From Ottowia thiooxydans DSM 14619 (lineage in GTDB: Bacteria > Pseudomonadota > Gammaproteobacteria > Burkholderiales > Burkholderiaceae_C), in contig NZ_KE383942.1 of NCBI RefSeq assembly GCF_000422885.1, positions 3,353-67,352 on the forward strand: a stretch of 64,000 bases of DNA. The letters are read 5' to 3'. A model generated the notes under the pieces. That model was not told where the DNA came from. It searched no databases and worked only from the letters and a program-made list of their open reading frames with translations. A program made the position numbers and the translations under genes. The first letter of the stretch is position 1. Every line of letters begins with the position of its first letter. Of this stretch, positions 20,440 through 31,641 are shown in pieces.

Positions 20440-22029
20440 ATGAATAAGCAAAGCACTTTCGTCGGCACAGCTCGGCCATTGGCCATAGCCTGCGCCTTGC
20501 TGATCAGTGGGGTCGCATCTCAGGCCCAAGTCTCACTGTCCGGCGCCAATGGAGTAGCTGTCAAATCGCCCTCCGGTTCGGTCATCACTGGTTTTTCAAA
20601 TGACGGTTCGGTGACTATTCCATCCCTGGGAACGACAGGAGGCTACGTCTTCACCGATTCAACCGGCAAGCTGTCGGTAGGCGCTGGTCCGACGGGCCCA
20701 GTTGGCGCGACGGGGGCTGTGGGGGCGACTGGGGTCACAGGAGCGTCGGGCGCTGAGGGACCCACAGGTGCGACGGGTGCCACAGGCGTCCTGGGCCCTA
20801 CAGGCGCGACCGGCGCGACCGGCCAAGTCGGCCCTACAGGTGCGACCGGAGCCACAGGTCTGATCGGGCCGACAGGGCTTACAGGGGCGACTGGCGCCGT
20901 AGGCGCCACGGGGCAAACGGGCGCAACAGGCGCAACAGGCGCAACAGGCGCAACAGGCGTAGTGGGTGCCGCCGGACCTACGGGTCCTTCTGGCAGCGTA
21001 GGCGCTACAGGGGCCACTGGGACCCCAGGAACACCAGGCACGCCAGGCGCGGCCGGCTCCCTTGGGCCTACAGGCAGCGTGGGCACTCAGGGCCCAACAG
21101 GGCCGGCTGGGGCAGTCGGGCCGACGGGTCCAGCCGGAGTGTCTGCGGAAGTCTACGGAAATGGCTCTAGTGGGGCCTTGACGGTTTCATCCAGTGCAAA
21201 TTGGGATACCAACCCTATAAACAGTACGCTTCAATACACCAGCTTCTCAGTGTCTGCGGGCGTGACGCTTACGGTGCCGAGCGGCCTGATCATTCGAGTC
21301 AACGGAGGTGTGAGCATTGCAGGCACGATTGTGGTGGCCGCAAGTCCTTCGGACGACAAAGGAATTGCAGGAACCGAGGCAGGGCTCGATAACGGCAATA
21401 CTTCAGCGGTTCAAAGCGGCGGCAGGGCAAGGCTGAACACCATGCTCGCGCGCACACTTGTAAACCCAGGCGCTGCGGGCGGCGGCATAGGTCCTTACAG
21501 GCTTGCCAACGGAGCACTTGCGAATGCTGCCGGTGGCGGCACGCTTGTCATTGCAGCAAGCGGAGCCATCTCGGTTGGAGCTAGTGGGGTAATCAGGGCG
21601 AATGGCGCCAGTTCTGCGCCGATCGTGCCCAATGTCAGCGTGGGCGGCGGCGGCGGCGGCGGCGGGGTGATCGTACTGGCGTCGAGAACTTCCGTCACCA
21701 ACAATGGAACCCTTCAGGCCACGGGCGGCAAGGGGGCAGACGCTCTCGCTGGCGCAGCGGGAGGATCTGCCTCCGGTGGCGGCGGCGGCGGGTTTGTCAA
21801 TCTGCTCGCACCTGCCGTTGTGCAAGGCACCACGAGCGTGGGTGGGGGCCCGGCGGGGACGGGGTTGAATACAGCCCACGGATACGGAGCAGGCGGCGGA
21901 GGCTCTGCAGGTAACGGAGGAAATTCAGGGGGTGCTTCAAATGCTGCTACAGCCGGTACTGCGGGCGTTGTTCTGACCACTACCGTGGATCCGTCGAACT
22001 TGTTCATAGGCTCAGCAGGGTTGCGTTGA
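20440..22029 (+). CDS. Collagen-like surface protein with Thr-rich Gly-X-Y repeats
   Basis: A 529-residue exported protein. A signal peptide (cleavage near ASQA-QVSL, residue 29) and a short globular part (30-82) precede 51 uninterrupted Gly-X-Y triplets at residues 83-235. About half have Thr at Y (GAT, GPT), as in glycosylated bacterial collagens such as BclA. The C-terminal ~290 residues form a Gly- and Val-rich domain with runs of six or more Gly (e.g. [14 protein letters not shown]), probably beta-rich; I do not recognise it. No LPXTG, anchor helix or autotransporter barrel is seen, so the attachment is unclear. Start ATG 20440 follows a weak GAAGAAA. Confidence 0.88.
20686..21144 (+). 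repeat. Collagen Gly-X-Y coding repeat region
   Basis: Fifty-one consecutive in-frame 9-bp triplet units of Gly-X-Y. A perfect four-fold tandem of GGCGCAACA (Gly-Ala-Thr) at 20920-20955 is the most slippage-prone part; unit gain or loss would keep the frame and change the triple-helix length. Confidence 0.93.
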
Positions 22030-22093
22030 AGTGCAGATTTAAGGGAATCGAATGGGCGGCGCAGCAAAGTTTGAAGAGCTGCGTCTCGTGCCT

Positions 22094-22102
22094 TGGTACA
22101 CT
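22094..22102 (+). promoter_or_regulatory. Candidate extended -10 promoter of tRNA-Arg
   Basis: TGGTACACT gives a TGn-TACACT extended -10 element ending nine bases before the tRNA 5' end, followed by a GC-rich discriminator (ACGCCCCG) as is usual for growth-rate-controlled stable RNA promoters. No clear -35 hexamer is seen at 17 bp. Confidence 0.45.
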
Positions 22103-22111
22103 ACGCCCCGT

Positions 22112-22415
22112 GCCTCCGTAGCTCAGTGGATAGAGCGATCCCCTCCTAGATTTTTTGGGCACCAGATTAGCGAAAGCTGCTGTGTGAATTGAGTCAAATT
22201 CGGTGAACCCTCTGGGCTTACAAGCCCGTGGCAACGCCGAGCCAAGCCCCTCACGGGGAAGGTGTAGAGACTAAACGGCTCAGGCCTGCATGAACCCCTA
22301 AGGGGTTCAATGGCCAAGACATAGTCCAGCCCACGAACACACGCATGGTGTGGCGGTGAAAACCGAAGTGGGATGAAGGGATAGGTCGCAGGTCCGATTC
22401 CTGCCGGGGGCACCA
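22112..22415 (+). tRNA. tRNA-Arg(CCU), interrupted by a group I intron
   Basis: Exons 22112-22147 and 22376-22415 join into a 76-nt tRNA. Acceptor GCCTCCG (22112-22118) pairs with CGGGGGC (22405-22411), followed by A and an encoded CCA. The D stem is GCTC/GAGC. Anticodon stem ATCCC (22138-22142) pairs with GGGAT (22378-22382), with loop CTCCTAA and anticodon CCT at 22145-22147. The T stem is GCAGG/CCTGC. The gene is split directly after the third anticodon base. The T loop reads TCCGATT, with C where nearly all elongator tRNAs have U55. The tRNA reads AGG arginine codons. Confidence 0.95.
22148..22375 (+). ncRNA. Group I self-splicing intron in tRNA-Arg anticodon loop
   Basis: A 228-nt intron without an open reading frame. 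The 5' exon ends in U (CCU) and the intron ends in G, as the group I mechanism requires. A GGG internal guide (22157-22159) can pair with CCU to form a three-base P1. Core elements closely match the Azoarcus tRNA-Ile intron: GAGTCAAATTCGGTGAA (22191), GGCAACGCCGAGCCAAGC (about 22230) and AAGGTGTAGAGACTA (22259-22273). P7 is GACTA (22269-22273) with TAGTC (22322-22326). P8 is AACCCC/GGGGTT. Distal helices are CCCAC/GTGGG, CACAC/GTGTG, and CGGT-GAAA-ACCG at 22354-22365. The subtype is probably IC3. Confidence 0.94.
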
Positions 22416-22438: not shown

Positions 22439-22819
22439 TCAAGAAAGGTCTGCGCCGTTCACGAACTTGATCGGTATGTCGGCCAGTTCAACGCCTTCCA
22501 GGCAGCGAGCATTGATAGCCCATCCCTCAAACGGGAGCTTACCTTCCGAAGTCTCCTGTGCAGTCGGTGCGCTCGGAATCCGAAACGGCATTATTCCGCA
22601 ATGGGGGCAGAAGTAATCCTTGGCTGTCCTTGAGTGCCATTCATAGACTGTCAGGTTTTCAAGCGGCGTGAGCATCCGAAGCGCTGACTTGGGAACCCTG
22701 TGAATCAGCGCACCCCGGCGTCTACATACTGAACAATTGCAGCTCCTGACATGGTCAAGGTCAGTGTCGACTTCGAAGCGGCACGCACCGCAGTGGCATG
22801 AACCCTGAAGAGTATCCAT
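22439..22819 (-). CDS. GFA family zinc protein
   Basis: A 126-residue protein of the GFA (glutathione-dependent formaldehyde-activating / CENP-V-like) family. The zinc-binding cysteines are visible as CHCGAC (about residue 9), CNCSVC (about 31) and CPHCG (about 73), with the typical LQGSCHCGACRFEV start. The biochemical role of most members is not proven despite the family name. I use ATG 22819 (MDTLQG); a TTG three codons earlier is possible. It runs convergent to the tRNA, ending 23 bases from the CCA. Confidence 0.88.
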   Translation of the reverse strand: MDTLQGSCHCGACRFEVDTDLDHVRSCNCSVCRRRGALIHRVPKSALRMLTPLENLTVYEWHSRTAKDYFCPHCGIMPFRIPSAPTAQETSEGKLPFEGWAINARCLEGVELADIPIKFVNGADLS

Positions 22820-22889
22820 AGGCTGCAAATTCTCGCTTACTTCTCCTCGTTCACGGCTTTAAAGTTAAACGAGCCTTGGTGGGTCTTGG

Positions 22890-23642: not shown

Positions 23643-26600
23643 TTAGTCGAACGAGAGGGTGTAGATCAGGTCCAGAGCACTGCGCTCGCCTGCTTGGCCG
23701 CGGAGTAGCCAGCGTTTGGAAAGCTCAAAGTAGACGAACAGCGTCCCCATTGCGCCAGCCAGGCTATGTTCGTAAGTGGCATAGAGCTTTTCAGAGATAC
23801 GCTTGCCCAGGGTGACGGAGGCGCCCGCCGTGCCGGTATCTGTATCACCACCGCCGCTGAAGCTGAGCTCGTCCAGCCCGAAGCGGGAGGCGACGCTGCG
23901 GCCTTCTCGCCCTCCCATGATGGCAATGGCCGCTTGTTGGAGCAGGGCGGACTCAGCGCCCCCGGAGGGAGCCGAGCGACCCAGAATTAACCAGGCGAGC
24001 TTCTCACTATCAGGAAGCTCTGGCTGGGCGTATAGGCGTACGCGTGGGAGCAGAGCTGAGCCAGTGACCTGAACGCCTACGCGTTGATCGGATTGATAGT
24101 TAGGGCGCAGGGCCAGGATGTTGAAAACAGGGTCGTTGGCGGGACCAACGAAGCGGATCACGCCGGTATCTATATTCAACTGCTGGCTGTAAGCTCGGAA
24201 AGTACCCCCGATGGTGTTTACCGTTCCTGTGACTCTTGGCAATGTGCCCATGGCACCGCTTGCGGTGATCGCGAGTTGGCCGGCAAGGCGGGTATTGAGG
24301 CCCAGGCCGCTGACGCGGAAGTCTTCGCCTAGATCGATCTGCACTTCGCCCTTCAGCGTGGCCGTATTTGCTGGCGATGCACCTTGATTTGGAGATTTGG
24401 CGGCCACGGGTGTTGCGGTCCACCCGCCGATTCCACGGCCATTGGGGCCTCGGACAATGACGTCCTTCCCAAGTGTGGGCGCCGTTTCCTCGGGCAGCGA
24501 AATGCGCGCTTGATCTACTCTTAGTTTGCCGTTGACGGTGCTCTCGCGTCCAGCCACGCTGGCCTGCAATTGACCGGAAACAATGACTTTTCGGTCGGCA
24601 CGCAAACTCGCGTGAAGCCGGTCGAGCGTGGCGTTCATGTTGGCCTGAACCTGGCCGTTCTGCAGCTTGGCTTCCCCATTGGCGCGCAAGCTTCCTCCGG
24701 CCTGATCGGTGCCGCCGCCCCTGAGGCTGAATTCATCGAGGATCAGGCGCTGCCCGTCTAGTCGAGCCCGCAGTCGTCCGCCGCTGAATTCAATGCCATC
24801 GACGACCGAGCGCAGGGCCAGATCATCAGCGCCCAGCGTGCCCGAAAGGAGCGGCGTTCCTCGGGTGCCCGCGATGCGTACATTGGCTGCCAGCGAACCC
24901 CTTACCCGCCAGCCAGGAGGTGCCAGTTGTGACCAGGCGCCGATGCGTGGCAGTGCGGCTCGCACTTCACCCGACAAAGGAGCGCTCTCAGGCCAGCTCC
25001 AGGCCACATCGCCCTCCTGGCTCTTGCTGGAGACGAGTTGAGAGCGCACTTCGCCTGTCGCGACACCCAAGTGCTCGGTGTCCCAGTTCAATTTCAGCGT
25101 GATCGCTTGCCCTTCGCTGCGCAGCTGCAGGCGCGCATCTTTCAGACCGGCTGCAATGCGTGTTTGCACTCCGGTATCGGCATCGCGAGTGGTTACGACG
25201 AGATCGCCGCGAGTACGTGCCAGTTCAGCTTCGATGCGCATGGTCTCGCCCAACTGGGCATTCCATTGGCCGTCGAAAATCACTTCGCCTGTGACGCCGG
25301 ATTCAGCCATTTGTGGGCCGGCGAACAGCTCCGCCCACGCCAGCGGCAAGCCAGTAATGCGTCCGCTACTGCTGAGGGTGCCCGCACGCCACTGCAAAGG
25401 TTGCCAGGCGACGGTGGTTGGGGACGCCGCTGAAGTTTTGAGCGGGGCCGTCAGCACCAGCTCTCCCGCACCCGCCTTGAATTCTCCACTGCCTTGTGCG
25501 CCGGGCGCAGGTGCCCAACTGAAACTCACTGGAACACGGCTCTTGACTTGCCACGGTGCATCAGAGCGACCTTGGCTCAGAGCGGGATCCTGGGCAGAGA
25601 GTTCGAGTTGCCGCAATGTCCCTTGCCAACTCGATGCTGCCAGTGTGGCGCCAGCTCGGCTGCGGCCACCTTCAGCGCTGGCGCGCAATTTGAATGTCCG
25701 TTTATCTTGCGTCAAGGTGCCGCGCAATTCCAGCTCAGCCTGAGACAGCCGGCCATTCAGATTGAGCAGGGTTTCCTGCAGCCTGGTGGGTGCTGGCGCG
25801 GTATTGACGTTCGCGTTGGCATCTGCCCGCCATTGCGCCGCGGGAATTTCAAGCTTTAGCTTCACAGAGGGATCTGTCCATCCGCCTTGCCAACTGCCAT
25901 TCAATGCCAGTTGCCCGCTCGCTTGTGCCGAGCTCAATTCTGATGGCACGCCGGGGAGTTTTTGAATCCAGCTGAGGGTTTTGGAAAGATCGGATATCTG
26001 GGCGTTTACGGCGCCACCGCCGACCCGTTCCGCTACATCGGCGTCGAGTTTGATGAGCGCTCCAGGGGCGCTCAGCTGGATCTGGCCTTTGCCAGAGGGT
26101 GCGTTAGGGCGCGCTTCGATCTTGGTGCCAGTCAGTTCGGCATCTGAAGTGCGTACGCGCAGGTTGGCTATACGCAAGAGGCCCTCTTGCCATCGTCCTT
26201 GCGCAGCAGCGCTTTGCACGCGCAACGCATAAATATCGCGCGCCAAAGCCTTTGCGGCCGTATCGCCTGAGCGTGTAGCCGGTGTGGCCTGACGATTGGC
26301 GCGTGCTTGCAGCGCGACATCGAAATCGATGGCGGTGCCTGCACCCGAAGCCGTGGCGCGGCCATCAATGGGAAAGGGGGCCAGTTTCGTGTGCAACCTG
26401 GCAGGGTCGATGCCATTCAGCGAGGTCACGATTTGCCAGTTGCCTGAATCGCTGGAGGCTGTGGATGCGGGCCTTGACCAGGAGCCCGCGCTTTCCAGCG
26501 TGCCACCCGCAAGCTCAGCCTTTAGAGCCTCGACAGTCGCCACGCCGTCTTGCCATATCGCTCGCGTATGAAGGCGATCCAATGGCAGGCGCTTGCTATC

Positions 26601-27641
26601 CCACGGGCCGGGCAGCGCATTCGTGATCTGCGCTGTGACCTGCCATCCAACAGCCTTGCTTTCGGCGGGCTTTTTGGCGGGCGTGGGGGCGATGTCCAAC
26701 TGGCCCGTCAAGCGGGTTTGCGGGCCAGGGGGCCAGAAGGGGGCGATGTCGAGATCAGAGAATTTAGCTTGTGCTTCGGGCAAGGGGTGTTCGCCCCAGG
26801 GCGTGATGCGTGCGGTGGCGTCAGCGCTGGCGGCGGGCGTGCCGGCTTCGGCCGCTTGACCGCGCACGGTCGCTTCGGCGCGCATTTCTGTCAGTGGACC
26901 GTGAACGCGCGCATTCACCGAAAGCGGCACACTTTGGCCGCCTTCGGGGGAGGGGCTCAGGAAGGTGCCAGACAAGCGCGCGTCTATATCCGGCGAACCA
27001 ACCGTTCCCAAACGAACTTCTGCCTGGTAGGTGCCTTGGGCAATGGCAGCGCTGTCTAGGTGAAGCCTATGGTTGGAACCATCAAAGCCATAGCGTCCGG
27101 TGACTGCTTCAGCGCTGAAAACCTGCGGATTCACCACTTCCAGCTTACCGGCATTGAAACCGTCTATCTGTACCTTCAGGGGCAGTCCCAGTGCTTGCGG
27201 CGGGCCTGAGGAGGGCGCGCCATCGGGCGGGCGTTGATCATCTACACGGATGTGGCGAGCGCTGAGACTGGTGAAACGTATTTGGCCACCAAGCAAAGCC
27301 AGCGGATCCCAGGTGTAGCGTGCGTCGTAAACATCGATCTTCAAGCCACCTTGGTGCCAGCGCAGATGACTCACTTCCCCGCCGCGCCGCAACGCGCCCT
27401 GCAAACCTTCGATGCCCAGCGCGTCTGGTGGAAGGTAGCGTTGCCCCCAACTCAGCACGCGAGCTAAAGAGCCCTCGCTGCCAGCCCAGTACCAGAAGGC
27501 GGCCAAGCTTGACGCCAGTACGAGGAGCAAGGAGGCGAAGGCGTAGCAAAACCGGCGCATCCAACGGCTAGGGCGGGAAGGTGGTGCAGGGGCCGCAGGT
27601 GAGGGCGACGCTGCGGGAGAGTTGGCGGTGGGTTCGGTCAT
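23643..27641 (-). CDS. tamB: Translocation and assembly module protein TamB
   Basis: A 1332-residue protein. A proline-rich cytoplasmic N-terminus (to about 25) and one membrane helix (about 30-50) precede a very long, repetitive beta-rich region of AsmA-like type, ending in the conserved C-terminal TamB (DUF490) domain (about 1000-1332, with PRVTGTVNTIGGTFRAYSQ and LDELSFSGGGDTDTGTA). TamB spans the periplasm as a hydrophobic groove and works with the TamA barrel in outer-membrane protein or lipid delivery. Its ATG overlaps the tamA TGA by one base (TGATG), so the two are co-translated. The start choice follows from that overlap. Confidence 0.93.
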   Translation of the reverse strand: MTEPTANSPAASPSPAAPAPPSRPSRWMRRFCYAFASLLLVLASSLAAFWYWAGSEGSLARVLSWGQRYLPPDALGIEGLQGALRRGGEVSHLRWHQGGLKIDVYDARYTWDPLALLGGQIRFTSLSARHIRVDDQRPPDGAPSSGPPQALGLPLKVQIDGFNAGKLEVVNPQVFSAEAVTGRYGFDGSNHRLHLDSAAIAQGTYQAEVRLGTVGSPDIDARLSGTFLSPSPEGGQSVPLSVNARVHGPLTEMRAEATVRGQAAEAGTPAASADATARITPWGEHPLPEAQAKFSDLDIAPFWPPGPQTRLTGQLDIAPTPAKKPAESKAVGWQVTAQITNALPGPWDSKRLPLDRLHTRAIWQDGVATVEALKAELAGGTLESAGSWSRPASTASSDSGNWQIVTSLNGIDPARLHTKLAPFPIDGRATASGAGTAIDFDVALQARANRQATPATRSGDTAAKALARDIYALRVQSAAAQGRWQEGLLRIANLRVRTSDAELTGTKIEARPNAPSGKGQIQLSAPGALIKLDADVAERVGGGAVNAQISDLSKTLSWIQKLPGVPSELSSAQASGQLALNGSWQGGWTDPSVKLKLEIPAAQWRADANANVNTAPAPTRLQETLLNLNGRLSQAELELRGTLTQDKRTFKLRASAEGGRSRAGATLAASSWQGTLRQLELSAQDPALSQGRSDAPWQVKSRVPVSFSWAPAPGAQGSGEFKAGAGELVLTAPLKTSAASPTTVAWQPLQWRAGTLSSSGRITGLPLAWAELFAGPQMAESGVTGEVIFDGQWNAQLGETMRIEAELARTRGDLVVTTRDADTGVQTRIAAGLKDARLQLRSEGQAITLKLNWDTEHLGVATGEVRSQLVSSKSQEGDVAWSWPESAPLSGEVRAALPRIGAWSQLAPPGWRVRGSLAANVRIAGTRGTPLLSGTLGADDLALRSVVDGIEFSGGRLRARLDGQRLILDEFSLRGGGTDQAGGSLRANGEAKLQNGQVQANMNATLDRLHASLRADRKVIVSGQLQASVAGRESTVNGKLRVDQARISLPEETAPTLGKDVIVRGPNGRGIGGWTATPVAAKSPNQGASPANTATLKGEVQIDLGEDFRVSGLGLNTRLAGQLAITASGAMGTLPRVTGTVNTIGGTFRAYSQQLNIDTGVIRFVGPANDPVFNILALRPNYQSDQRVGVQVTGSALLPRVRLYAQPELPDSEKLAWLILGRSAPSGGAESALLQQAAIAIMGGREGRSVASRFGLDELSFSGGGDTDTGTAGASVTLGKRISEKLYATYEHSLAGAMGTLFVYFELSKRWLLRGQAGERSALDLIYTLSFD

Positions 27642-30453: not shown

Positions 30454-31641
30454 TTACTTCGACAACATCCGCATCGACTCCTCCAACCCTTTGAGGGTGA
30501 GCGGAAACATGCGGTTGCTCATCAATTGCTGGATCACGGCAATGCTCTGGCGATACTGCCAGACGCCCATGGGCTCGGGGTTGATCCAGGCGAACTTGGG
30601 GAACGCGTGCGTCAGGCGCTGTAGCCACTCGGCACCCGCCTCTTCATTGTTGTATTCCACGCTGCCGCCGGGCTGCAGGATTTCGTAGGGGCTCATCGTG
30701 GCATCGCCTACAAAGATCAGTTTGTAGTCTTTGTTGTACTTTCGGATGATGTCCCAGGTGGGGAATTTTTCCGCGAAGCGCCGTCGATTGTTCTTCCACA
30801 TGAAGTCATAGACGCAGTTGTGGAAATAATAGAACTCCAGGTGCTTGAACTCTGCCTTCACGGCTGAAAACAGCTCTTCCACGCGCTGGATGTGCTCATC
30901 CATGGTGCCGCCCACGTCCATCAGGATCAGCACTTTCACGTTGTTATGCCGCTCTGGCACCATCTTGATGTCGAGCCAGCCGGCATTGGCTGCTGTTGAA
31001 CGGATGGTGTCGGGCAGGTCCAGCTCCAGCTCGTTGCCTTGGCGTGCAAATTTGCGCAGCCGTCGCAATGCGACCTTGATGTTGCGCGTACCTAGCTCCT
31101 GGCTGTCGTCGTAATCCTTGTAAGCGCGTTGGTCCCACACCTTGACCGCACTTTTGTTCCCGCCCTTGCCGCCAATGCGTACCCCTCGTGGGTTGTAGCC
31201 CCCATGGCCGAAAGGGCTGGTGCCGCCTGTGCCTATCCACTTGCTGCCGCCCTCATGGCGCTCCTTCTGCTCTTCCAGGCGCTTCTTGAGCGTTTCCATC
31301 AGCTCGTCCCAGCCCATTTTTTCGATGGCGGCTTTTTCTTCGGGGGTGAGTTCCTTTTCGAGTATCTGGCGCAGCCAGTCAGCAGGGATTTCCTTGGTGA
31401 AATCGGTCAGTTGCTCTACGCCTTTGAAATACGCGGCAAAAGCGCGGTCGAATTTGTCAAAGTGCTTCTCATCCTTGACCAGGGCCGTGCGAGCCAGGTA
31501 GTAGAAATCATCGATTGAGCAGGCATCAGGTTGCCTGGGGCCCACGACATCGGCCTGCAGGGCTTCCAAAAGTACCAGAAACTCCTTGACCGAGACCGGT
31601 AGCTTGGCGGAGCGCAGGGCGTAGAAAAAATCGATCAGCAT
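30454..31641 (-). CDS. VWA domain protein, CoxE-like
   Basis: A 395-residue cytoplasmic protein. The N-terminus (FFYALRSAKLPVSVKEFLVLLEAL) and the C-terminal von Willebrand A domain match the CoxE/YehP-like VWA family. The metal-ion site motif DxGxS appears as DVGGTM, so Thr replaces Ser, which is tolerated. A Gly-rich stretch (about 140-165) links the two parts. Related proteins act with MoxR AAA+ ATPases as metal or cofactor insertion chaperones; no such ATPase is next to this gene here. The palindromic element lies just past its 3' end and the kynA gene is upstream on the same strand, 104 bp away. Confidence 0.88.
   Translation of the reverse strand: MLIDFFYALRSAKLPVSVKEFLVLLEALQADVVGPRQPDACSIDDFYYLARTALVKDEKHFDKFDRAFAAYFKGVEQLTDFTKEIPADWLRQILEKELTPEEKAAIEKMGWDELMETLKKRLEEQKERHEGGSKWIGTGGTSPFGHGGYNPRGVRIGGKGGNKSAVKVWDQRAYKDYDDSQELGTRNIKVALRRLRKFARQGNELELDLPDTIRSTAANAGWLDIKMVPERHNNVKVLILMDVGGTMDEHIQRVEELFSAVKAEFKHLEFYYFHNCVYDFMWKNNRRRFAEKFPTWDIIRKYNKDYKLIFVGDATMSPYEILQPGGSVEYNNEEAGAEWLQRLTHAFPKFAWINPEPMGVWQYRQSIAVIQQLMSNRMFPLTLKGLEESMRMLSK

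Follow-up and report, generated by a model that had tools for sequence, protein, structure and literature searches.

The group I introns of tRNA genes are generally assigned to subgroup IC3. The closest described counterparts of the locus analyzed here are the alphaproteobacterial introns in tRNA-Arg(CCU), known from Agrobacterium and, as BbgpI, from Bartonella, which reside in the same tRNA with the same anticodon. According to the Bartonella report, BbgpI splices in vivo as well as in vitro, and its split host gene is found by tRNAscan-SE only with the intron removed (PMC7717549). The title of a 1999 paper cited there announces a sporadic occurrence of tRNA-Arg(CCU) introns among alpha-purple bacteria, along with horizontal transmission and transposition (cited in PMC7717549). 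Further tRNA introns have been reported as well, such as tRNA-Ile(CAU) introns in Acidovorax and Burkholderia, reported by tRNAscan-SE 2.0 (PMC8450103), and, in cyanobacteria, tRNA-Arg introns that are much shorter and of another type (PMC5733544). For tRNA-Leu(UAA), recombination of the whole split locus is named in the title of Rudi et al. (2002), a paper cited in the review PMC3984707; this is the same whole-locus mode that we consider below, in another tRNA. Group I introns in tRNA-Arg(CCU) are therefore an already known kind, and the gene presented here is a further member with a displacement pattern, whose host, unlike that of the alphaproteobacterial introns, is betaproteobacterial. Searches of open-licence papers listed no published report of this gene.

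Structure of the Split tRNA-Arg(CCU) Gene

The window, i.e., the whole stretch of 64,000 nucleotides that was analyzed, carries on its forward strand a tRNA-Arg(CCU) gene that is interrupted by a 228-nt group I intron between U36 and A37. Direct reading and a splice scan, which demanded a U preceding the intron and a G as last intron base, placed the 5' exon at 22112..22147 (nt 1–36, with the 3' end CCT representing C34 C35 U36) and the 3' exon at 22376..22415 (nt 37 to CCA). The intron between them (22148..22375) is recognized by its match to RF00028, whereas its exact ends derive from the splice scan. After joining of 22112–22147 and 22376–22415, a complete tRNA-Arg(CCU) of 76 nt is obtained with fully paired acceptor stem (7/7), D-arm (4/4), anticodon stem (5/5), and T-arm (5/5), as well as the anticodon loop CTCCTAA. 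Thus, the original prediction that a tRNA is restored by removal of 228 nt directly after the third anticodon base was confirmed with exact coordinates. The same prediction had called this tRNA perfect, which holds true for all stems but not for the T loop TCCGATT (22393–22399), where by eye a C instead of a U is read at position 55. U55 is nearly universal in tRNA T loops. Also read by eye, C55 is common to six aligned near split genes and absent from the split gene L111. The exon 1 sequence is the same as in the split genes L108 (G136), L109 (G047), L110 (G257), L144, and L158.

In order to describe the intron, its sequence was read against the RF00028 alignment and a predicted fold. The 5' splice site U is located at 22147 and the terminal intron G at 22375, whereas the guide GGG (22157..22159) pairs with C34 C35 U36 in P1 with a U36.G wobble. 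P2 is a GCGAAAGC hairpin with a GAAA loop (22170..22177; sequence and fold), which is invariant in 7/7 aligned genes. There follow the 5' strand of P3 (22190..22195) with its partner at 22277–22282, the P4-P5-P6 domain (22199..22262), for which the pairs were assigned by reading, and P7, formed by GACTA (22269..22273) and TAGTC (22322–22326). P8 with an inner hairpin spans 22283..22315 according to sequence, alignment, and fold. The long 3' domain (22328..22375), delimited by tail measures and fold, includes the terminal G and P9 (CCCAC/GTGGG, 22330–22334/22368–22372), within which two further hairpins lie at 22338–22352 and, GAAA-capped, at 22354–22365. The U before the intron, the terminal G, the GGG guide, and the P7 strands had all been named beforehand and are present in the sequence. 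The longest open stretch within the 228 nt comprises 75 codons, approximately one whole frame, which is probably too short for the usual homing endonucleases.

Comparison with the Rfam group I covariance model, suggested as a check on the prediction, gave a match at 22142–22348 that covers the full model (1–253) with 51.4 bits and an E-value of 3.9e-10 in the 64-kb window, barely above the gathering cut-off of 50 bits. It is the sole RF00028 match in the 7.05-Mb genome. Six related split genes (L108–L111, L158, and L144) only reach 27–34 bits, so that a pipeline bound to the cut-off would overlook these copies. Folding of the entire precursor predicts a structure 3.5 sd stabler than those of 100 shuffles, and 0/100 shuffles fold as well. 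According to PMC7717549, BbgpI is flanked by CCT repeats, whereas the window intron ends with ...GTGGGATG before AAGG, without a 3' CCT.

Upstream of the tRNA, the element CTTGGTACACT (22092..22102, forward strand) is identical in 6/6 near-clade split genes compared and may represent a candidate -10 region; a scan with the sigma-70 consensus detected no promoter.

Gene Content and Annotation

ARAGORN called no tRNA in the 64-kb window, just as had been anticipated for automatic tRNA callers. Because of this miss, annotation could falsely imply a genome without tRNA-Arg(CCU). A tRNA search of the own genome resulted in 44 matches, 43 of which were typed by ARAGORN, including tRNA-Arg with the anticodons CCG, ACG, and UCU. 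An intact second tRNA-Arg(CCU), named in advance as part of what would refute the prediction, was not found among the 43/44 typed matches and the 150/182 first-look candidates that were scored, which makes such a gene improbable, though still conceivable. With an intact Arg(CCU) query from the genus member G007, the own genome yielded only 28 nt, which lie in exon 2.

Relationship to Other tRNA Introns

A pattern scan of named genomes led to the identification of at least 117 loci, and 109 of the 117 listed resolve to a split tRNA-Arg(CCU). The hosts among the listed loci include many cyanobacteria and gammaproteobacteria and also betaproteobacteria, with Variovorax, Polaromonas, Ramlibacter, Xylophilus, Curvibacter, Limnohabitans, Cupriavidus, and Burkholderia among the matches listed. 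Herbaspirillum alone accounts for 16/117 listed loci. Thus, an Arg(CCU) intron in a betaproteobacterium is nothing rare. Within the own family, the intron query matched in 31/399 genomes, and the 30 matches with a locus fall into Arg(CCU) (9), Leu(UAA) (8), Ile(CAU) (7), and Thr(UGU) (2), with 4 unresolved. At E ≤ 0.001, RF00028 matched in 36/299 family, 28/250 order, and 34/398 phylum genomes. Across the 29 genus genomes, RF00028 gave three matches beyond the own one, i.e., in tRNA-Ile(CAU), in tRNA-Leu(UAA), and one unresolved, so that a second split Arg(CCU) gene did not come to light with this model.

Several further loci were noticed in the course of these searches. In the same family, tRNA-Thr(UGU) genes are split after U34 by related introns (L032/L397 in G138 and L401 in G184). 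Five tRNA-Ile(CAU) introns (L285, L288, L289, L291, and L293) fit an insertion after U33 instead of U36; they form one clade (100/98) and have a long P9 domain. Candidate group I introns in tRNA-Arg(UCU), tRNA-Asn(GUU), and tRNA-Ser(UGA) (L243, L249, L276, L271, and L295) have long branches, and their intron ends are not all certain. An enterobacterial IncI plasmid shows a weak group I intron match of 32.4 bits (L241:2906-3098), and a segment from the core of the window intron has matches in 1256 plasmid records, most of them with 60–80% identity.

Behind the 3' strand of P7, the window intron has a tail of 46 nt, which forms a larger P9 domain (48 nt by the first-match rule, 46 nt by the measure used for the classes). 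The tail is ≤28 nt in 28/28 same-order Ile(CAU) rows with insertion after U36 and in 46/46 cyanobacterial Arg(CCU) rows, whereas it is longer in 70/70 other, non-cyanobacterial Arg(CCU) rows (37–67 nt) and in 27/27 Leu(UAA) rows. Outliers were read as pattern artefacts; by the class measure these are one Ile row (17 nt) and four Leu rows (32, 137, 168, and 168 nt), by the first-match rule five Ile rows (45–92 nt) and one cyanobacterial row (111 nt). The tail lengths took the place of a P9 pattern that was too loose. A simple pattern returned the guide triplet GGG in 114/116 Arg(CCU) rows, GTG in 28/28 Ile(CAU) rows with insertion after U36, and GAG in 24/27 Leu(UAA) rows, but its triplets were inconsistent where Ile(CAU) rows are cut after U33. 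The guide thus tracks the insertion site, and the main targets are one base apart.

Taken by kind, the proteobacterial Leu(UAA) introns (e.g., L275, L281, and L284) have a long P9 like the window intron and represent its nearest outgroup in the 131-row tree, but they are inserted after U34 and mostly carry the guide GAG. The tRNA-Ile(CAU) introns of the Azoarcus kind, as judged from introns of the same order, share with the window intron the insertion after U36 and a similar core, but differ in their short P9 tail and the guide GTG. In pairwise comparisons, the window intron is 47–62% identical to four Ile(CAU) rows and 61–74% identical to seven Leu(UAA) rows, and it resembles certain gammaproteobacterial Arg(CCU) introns just as closely as the Leu(UAA) ones (L119, 68%).

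For phylogenetic analysis, 131 of the 182 rows were retained after seven long-branch rows and most of the near-duplicate cyanobacterial and Herbaspirillum rows had been dropped; a 91-row set with long P9 additionally left out the cyanobacterial rows and the Ile(CAU) rows with insertion after U36. In the 131-row tree the window intron belongs to a clade of 26 Arg(CCU) rows (96/98), of which 24 are betaproteobacterial or of the same family and 2 gammaproteobacterial. This clade groups with three Leu(UAA) introns of the same order (97/85) and lies far away from the Ile(CAU) introns. In a quick tree of all 182 rows, the smallest starred set with the window intron consists of 8 Arg(CCU) and 11 Leu(UAA) rows, and in the 91-row tree the sole starred set listed with it has 3 rows. 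AU tests on the 131-row tree rejected neither a single Leu(UAA) clade (p 0.335) nor a single all-Arg(CCU) clade (p 0.223), nor, on trimmed columns, a joint clade with Ile(CAU) (p 0.136). The same applies to the 91 long-P9 rows with one Leu(UAA) clade (p 0.093) or one all-Arg(CCU) clade (p 0.365). Holding the betaproteobacterial Arg(CCU) group together with Leu(UAA) (p 0.0839) or holding together the 25 named betaproteobacterial Arg(CCU) rows of the 91-row set (p 0.125) was not decisive. The placement on the Leu(UAA) side is therefore suggestive only. By its long P9, a trait common to proteobacterial Arg(CCU) and Leu(UAA) introns, the window intron falls outside the tRNA-Ile(CAU) kind of this order. 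Hence, the kinship with the Azoarcus intron that was originally proposed was not borne out, given the tail of 46 nt versus ≤28 nt in same-order Ile(CAU) introns and the position in the tree beside Leu(UAA).

Comparison of tRNA Bodies and Gene Neighborhoods

The mature tRNA of the window is 76/76 identical to that of the Variovorax ginsengisoli split gene (L158), and 97% identical to those of L108, L109, and L110 (Ramlibacter and two Xylophilus) and of L144 (Polaromonas). Identity decreases to 93% for L142 and to 91% for three Herbaspirillum genes and L183. The 11 intact genes of the own genus that were compared are merely 75–84% identical to it, and 6 intact genes from other genera of the family 82–85%; since the latter values are near the best ones of the own genus, a low body identity is seen outside this genus as well. 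A native-type query matched in 24/28 genus relatives (63–75 nt, 81–100% identity), whereas in 4/28 there was either no match (three) or a weak one (one), some of these assemblies being incomplete. Five family genomes (G293, G967, G207, G102, and G142) carry the intron within a native-type body of 75 nt, which means that native-split and foreign-body states both exist.

In V. ginsengisoli (L158), Polaromonas (L144), Ramlibacter (L155), and Xylophilus (L182 and L225), the split tRNA-Arg(CCU) tract is 84–88% identical to that of the window, the tRNA 97–100% identical, and the upstream CTTGGTACACT is held in common. The homology to the five distinct near records sets in 20–29 nt ahead of the tRNA, coinciding with or slightly preceding CTTGGTACACT, and ends ≤4 nt past CCA, except for a tamB stretch in L158 and a downstream stretch in L144. 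For the Ramlibacter and Xylophilus records no common flank with the window was detected, the Polaromonas record contains part of the gene that occupies window positions 30454–31641, and in V. ginsengisoli the split gene is located beside tamB, as in the window.

In the window, tamB (23643..27641, reverse strand; Pfam PF04357) has its stop 1.2 kb away from the split gene, which follows beyond it on the other strand. Two ORFs intervene, among these a gene for a GFA-family protein (22439..22828, reverse strand; Pfam PF04828). With this GFA neighbor as query, 10/29 genus genomes gave a match. The V. ginsengisoli split gene is approximately 0.1 kb away from tamB, likewise on the opposite strand. 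An intact Arg(CCU) gene lies ≤1.5 kb from tamB at 12/25 genus loci, whereby the own locus was counted as one without, and at 18/28 further family loci drawn from 92 family genomes with a tamB match. Such native genes often follow just after tamB and on its strand, with the exception of G004. On the other side of the split gene, a collagen-repeat, glycine-rich ORF (20440–22029) ends 82 nt upstream of the tRNA. A mobile element in the form of an integrase beside the gene was looked for by Pfam among seven window ORFs, none of which qualified; the ten ORFs at five relative loci included one rve integrase-core protein, near the Xylophilus gene L109. As separate observations, fragments corresponding to the 5' half of further Arg(CCU)-like tRNAs occur near split genes (L108:600-660 and L111:3620-3660) and may be integration scars, and a tRNA 3' half, by eye of tRNA-Pro, approximately 2 kb from a tRNA-Arg(UCU) in L107 (G000:C3:29800-29900), is a possible integration remnant.

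Discussion

By analogy with BbgpI, standard group I splicing is to be expected for the window intron. The precursor would fold such that the guide GGG pairs with CCU in P1 and the U36.G wobble marks the 5' splice site. Cleavage behind U36 by a P7-bound guanosine would release U36, which would in turn attack the junction that follows the terminal G of the intron. The joined tRNA would then mature and read AGG; we infer both the splicing and the use of this tRNA-Arg(CCU). As to the history of the gene, the 76/76 identity to V. ginsengisoli, compared with 75–84% to the own genus, and the native-type gene in 24/28 relatives suggest a whole-gene DISPLACEMENT, in which the entire split gene displaced the native one. 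The unit of short upstream element, tRNA body, and intron would most likely have come from a different lineage within this family and would have replaced the intact gene that relatives kept, often beside tamB. We regard this acquisition and replacement as rather probable. Overall, the explanation as a split tRNA-Arg(CCU) gene with standard group I splicing appears very likely to us, the acquisition step less so. The recombination of an entire split tRNA-Leu(UAA) locus mentioned at the outset reportedly belongs to a cyanobacterial setting.

The main rival to displacement assumes that the family has long had two paralogous types of tRNA-Arg(CCU), of 75 nt and 76 nt, which were lost differentially. 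Only the split 76-nt gene would then have survived in the own lineage and only the 75-nt type in most relatives, without any transfer. Intact 76-nt bodies do exist in the family, in G167 and G166 (L064 and L069), which makes two old gene types with differential loss possible; moreover, the split gene of V. ginsengisoli sits at the same place and strand beside tamB as that of the window, so that this arrangement could be an older shared state rather than the outcome of a recent transfer. However, the 75-nt type prevails in the genus (24/28 relatives), and RF00028 revealed no second split Arg(CCU) gene in the 29 genus genomes, so that we judge this history possible but rather unlikely. Alternatively, the split gene might be dead, with tRNA-Arg(UCU) reading AGG in its stead. 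The latter tRNA is present in the genome, AGG is rare (23/321 Arg codons in ten window ORFs), and the C55 in the T loop is odd. Yet neither the stems nor the ribozyme core show any damage, and five other distinct records contain the tract with conserved exons at 84–88% identity, which renders a dead copy very improbable.

A further question concerns the source of the intron itself. Reverse splicing may have carried a tRNA-Leu(UAA) intron into tRNA-Arg(CCU), whereby a single guide base changed (GAG to GGG). The junction of the 26-row Arg(CCU) clade with three same-order Leu(UAA) introns (97/85), the mixed starred set of the 182-row tree, and the long P9 domain of both kinds point in this direction, whereas the AU tests allow one Leu(UAA) clade (0.335 and 0.093) just as one all-Arg(CCU) clade (0.223 and 0.365), the 91-row tree lists just one 3-row starred set with the window intron, and some gammaproteobacterial Arg(CCU) introns are equally similar (L119). 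We therefore give the Leu(UAA) origin somewhat less than an even chance. A descent from an Azoarcus-type tRNA-Ile(CAU) intron would account for the identical insertion point after U36 and the similar P3-P8 core, and the AU test keeps the joint clade on trimmed columns; but the short tail in 28/28 Ile(CAU) rows, compared with 46 nt in the window, and the lower identity (47–62% versus 61–74% to Leu(UAA)) leave it hardly any credit.

Returning to the acquisition of the split unit as the preferred reading, a wider picture can be drawn only tentatively, and we doubt that it will hold in all its parts: the split unit travels and displaces native genes, the same intron lineage also sits in native-type genes, and it arose by a jump from Leu(UAA) with GAG turned into GGG. 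If this were true, one ribozyme lineage would spread in two ways within one family, by retargeting and by whole-gene replacement. The family offers a compact test bed in this respect, as one and the same tRNA gene occurs intact, split in its native form, and split with a foreign body, in part within the same tamB neighborhood, and with introns whose guides differ by one base between tRNA sites. On this basis, the movement of tRNA introns without an evident endonuclease would be testable by comparison and by in vitro retargeting.
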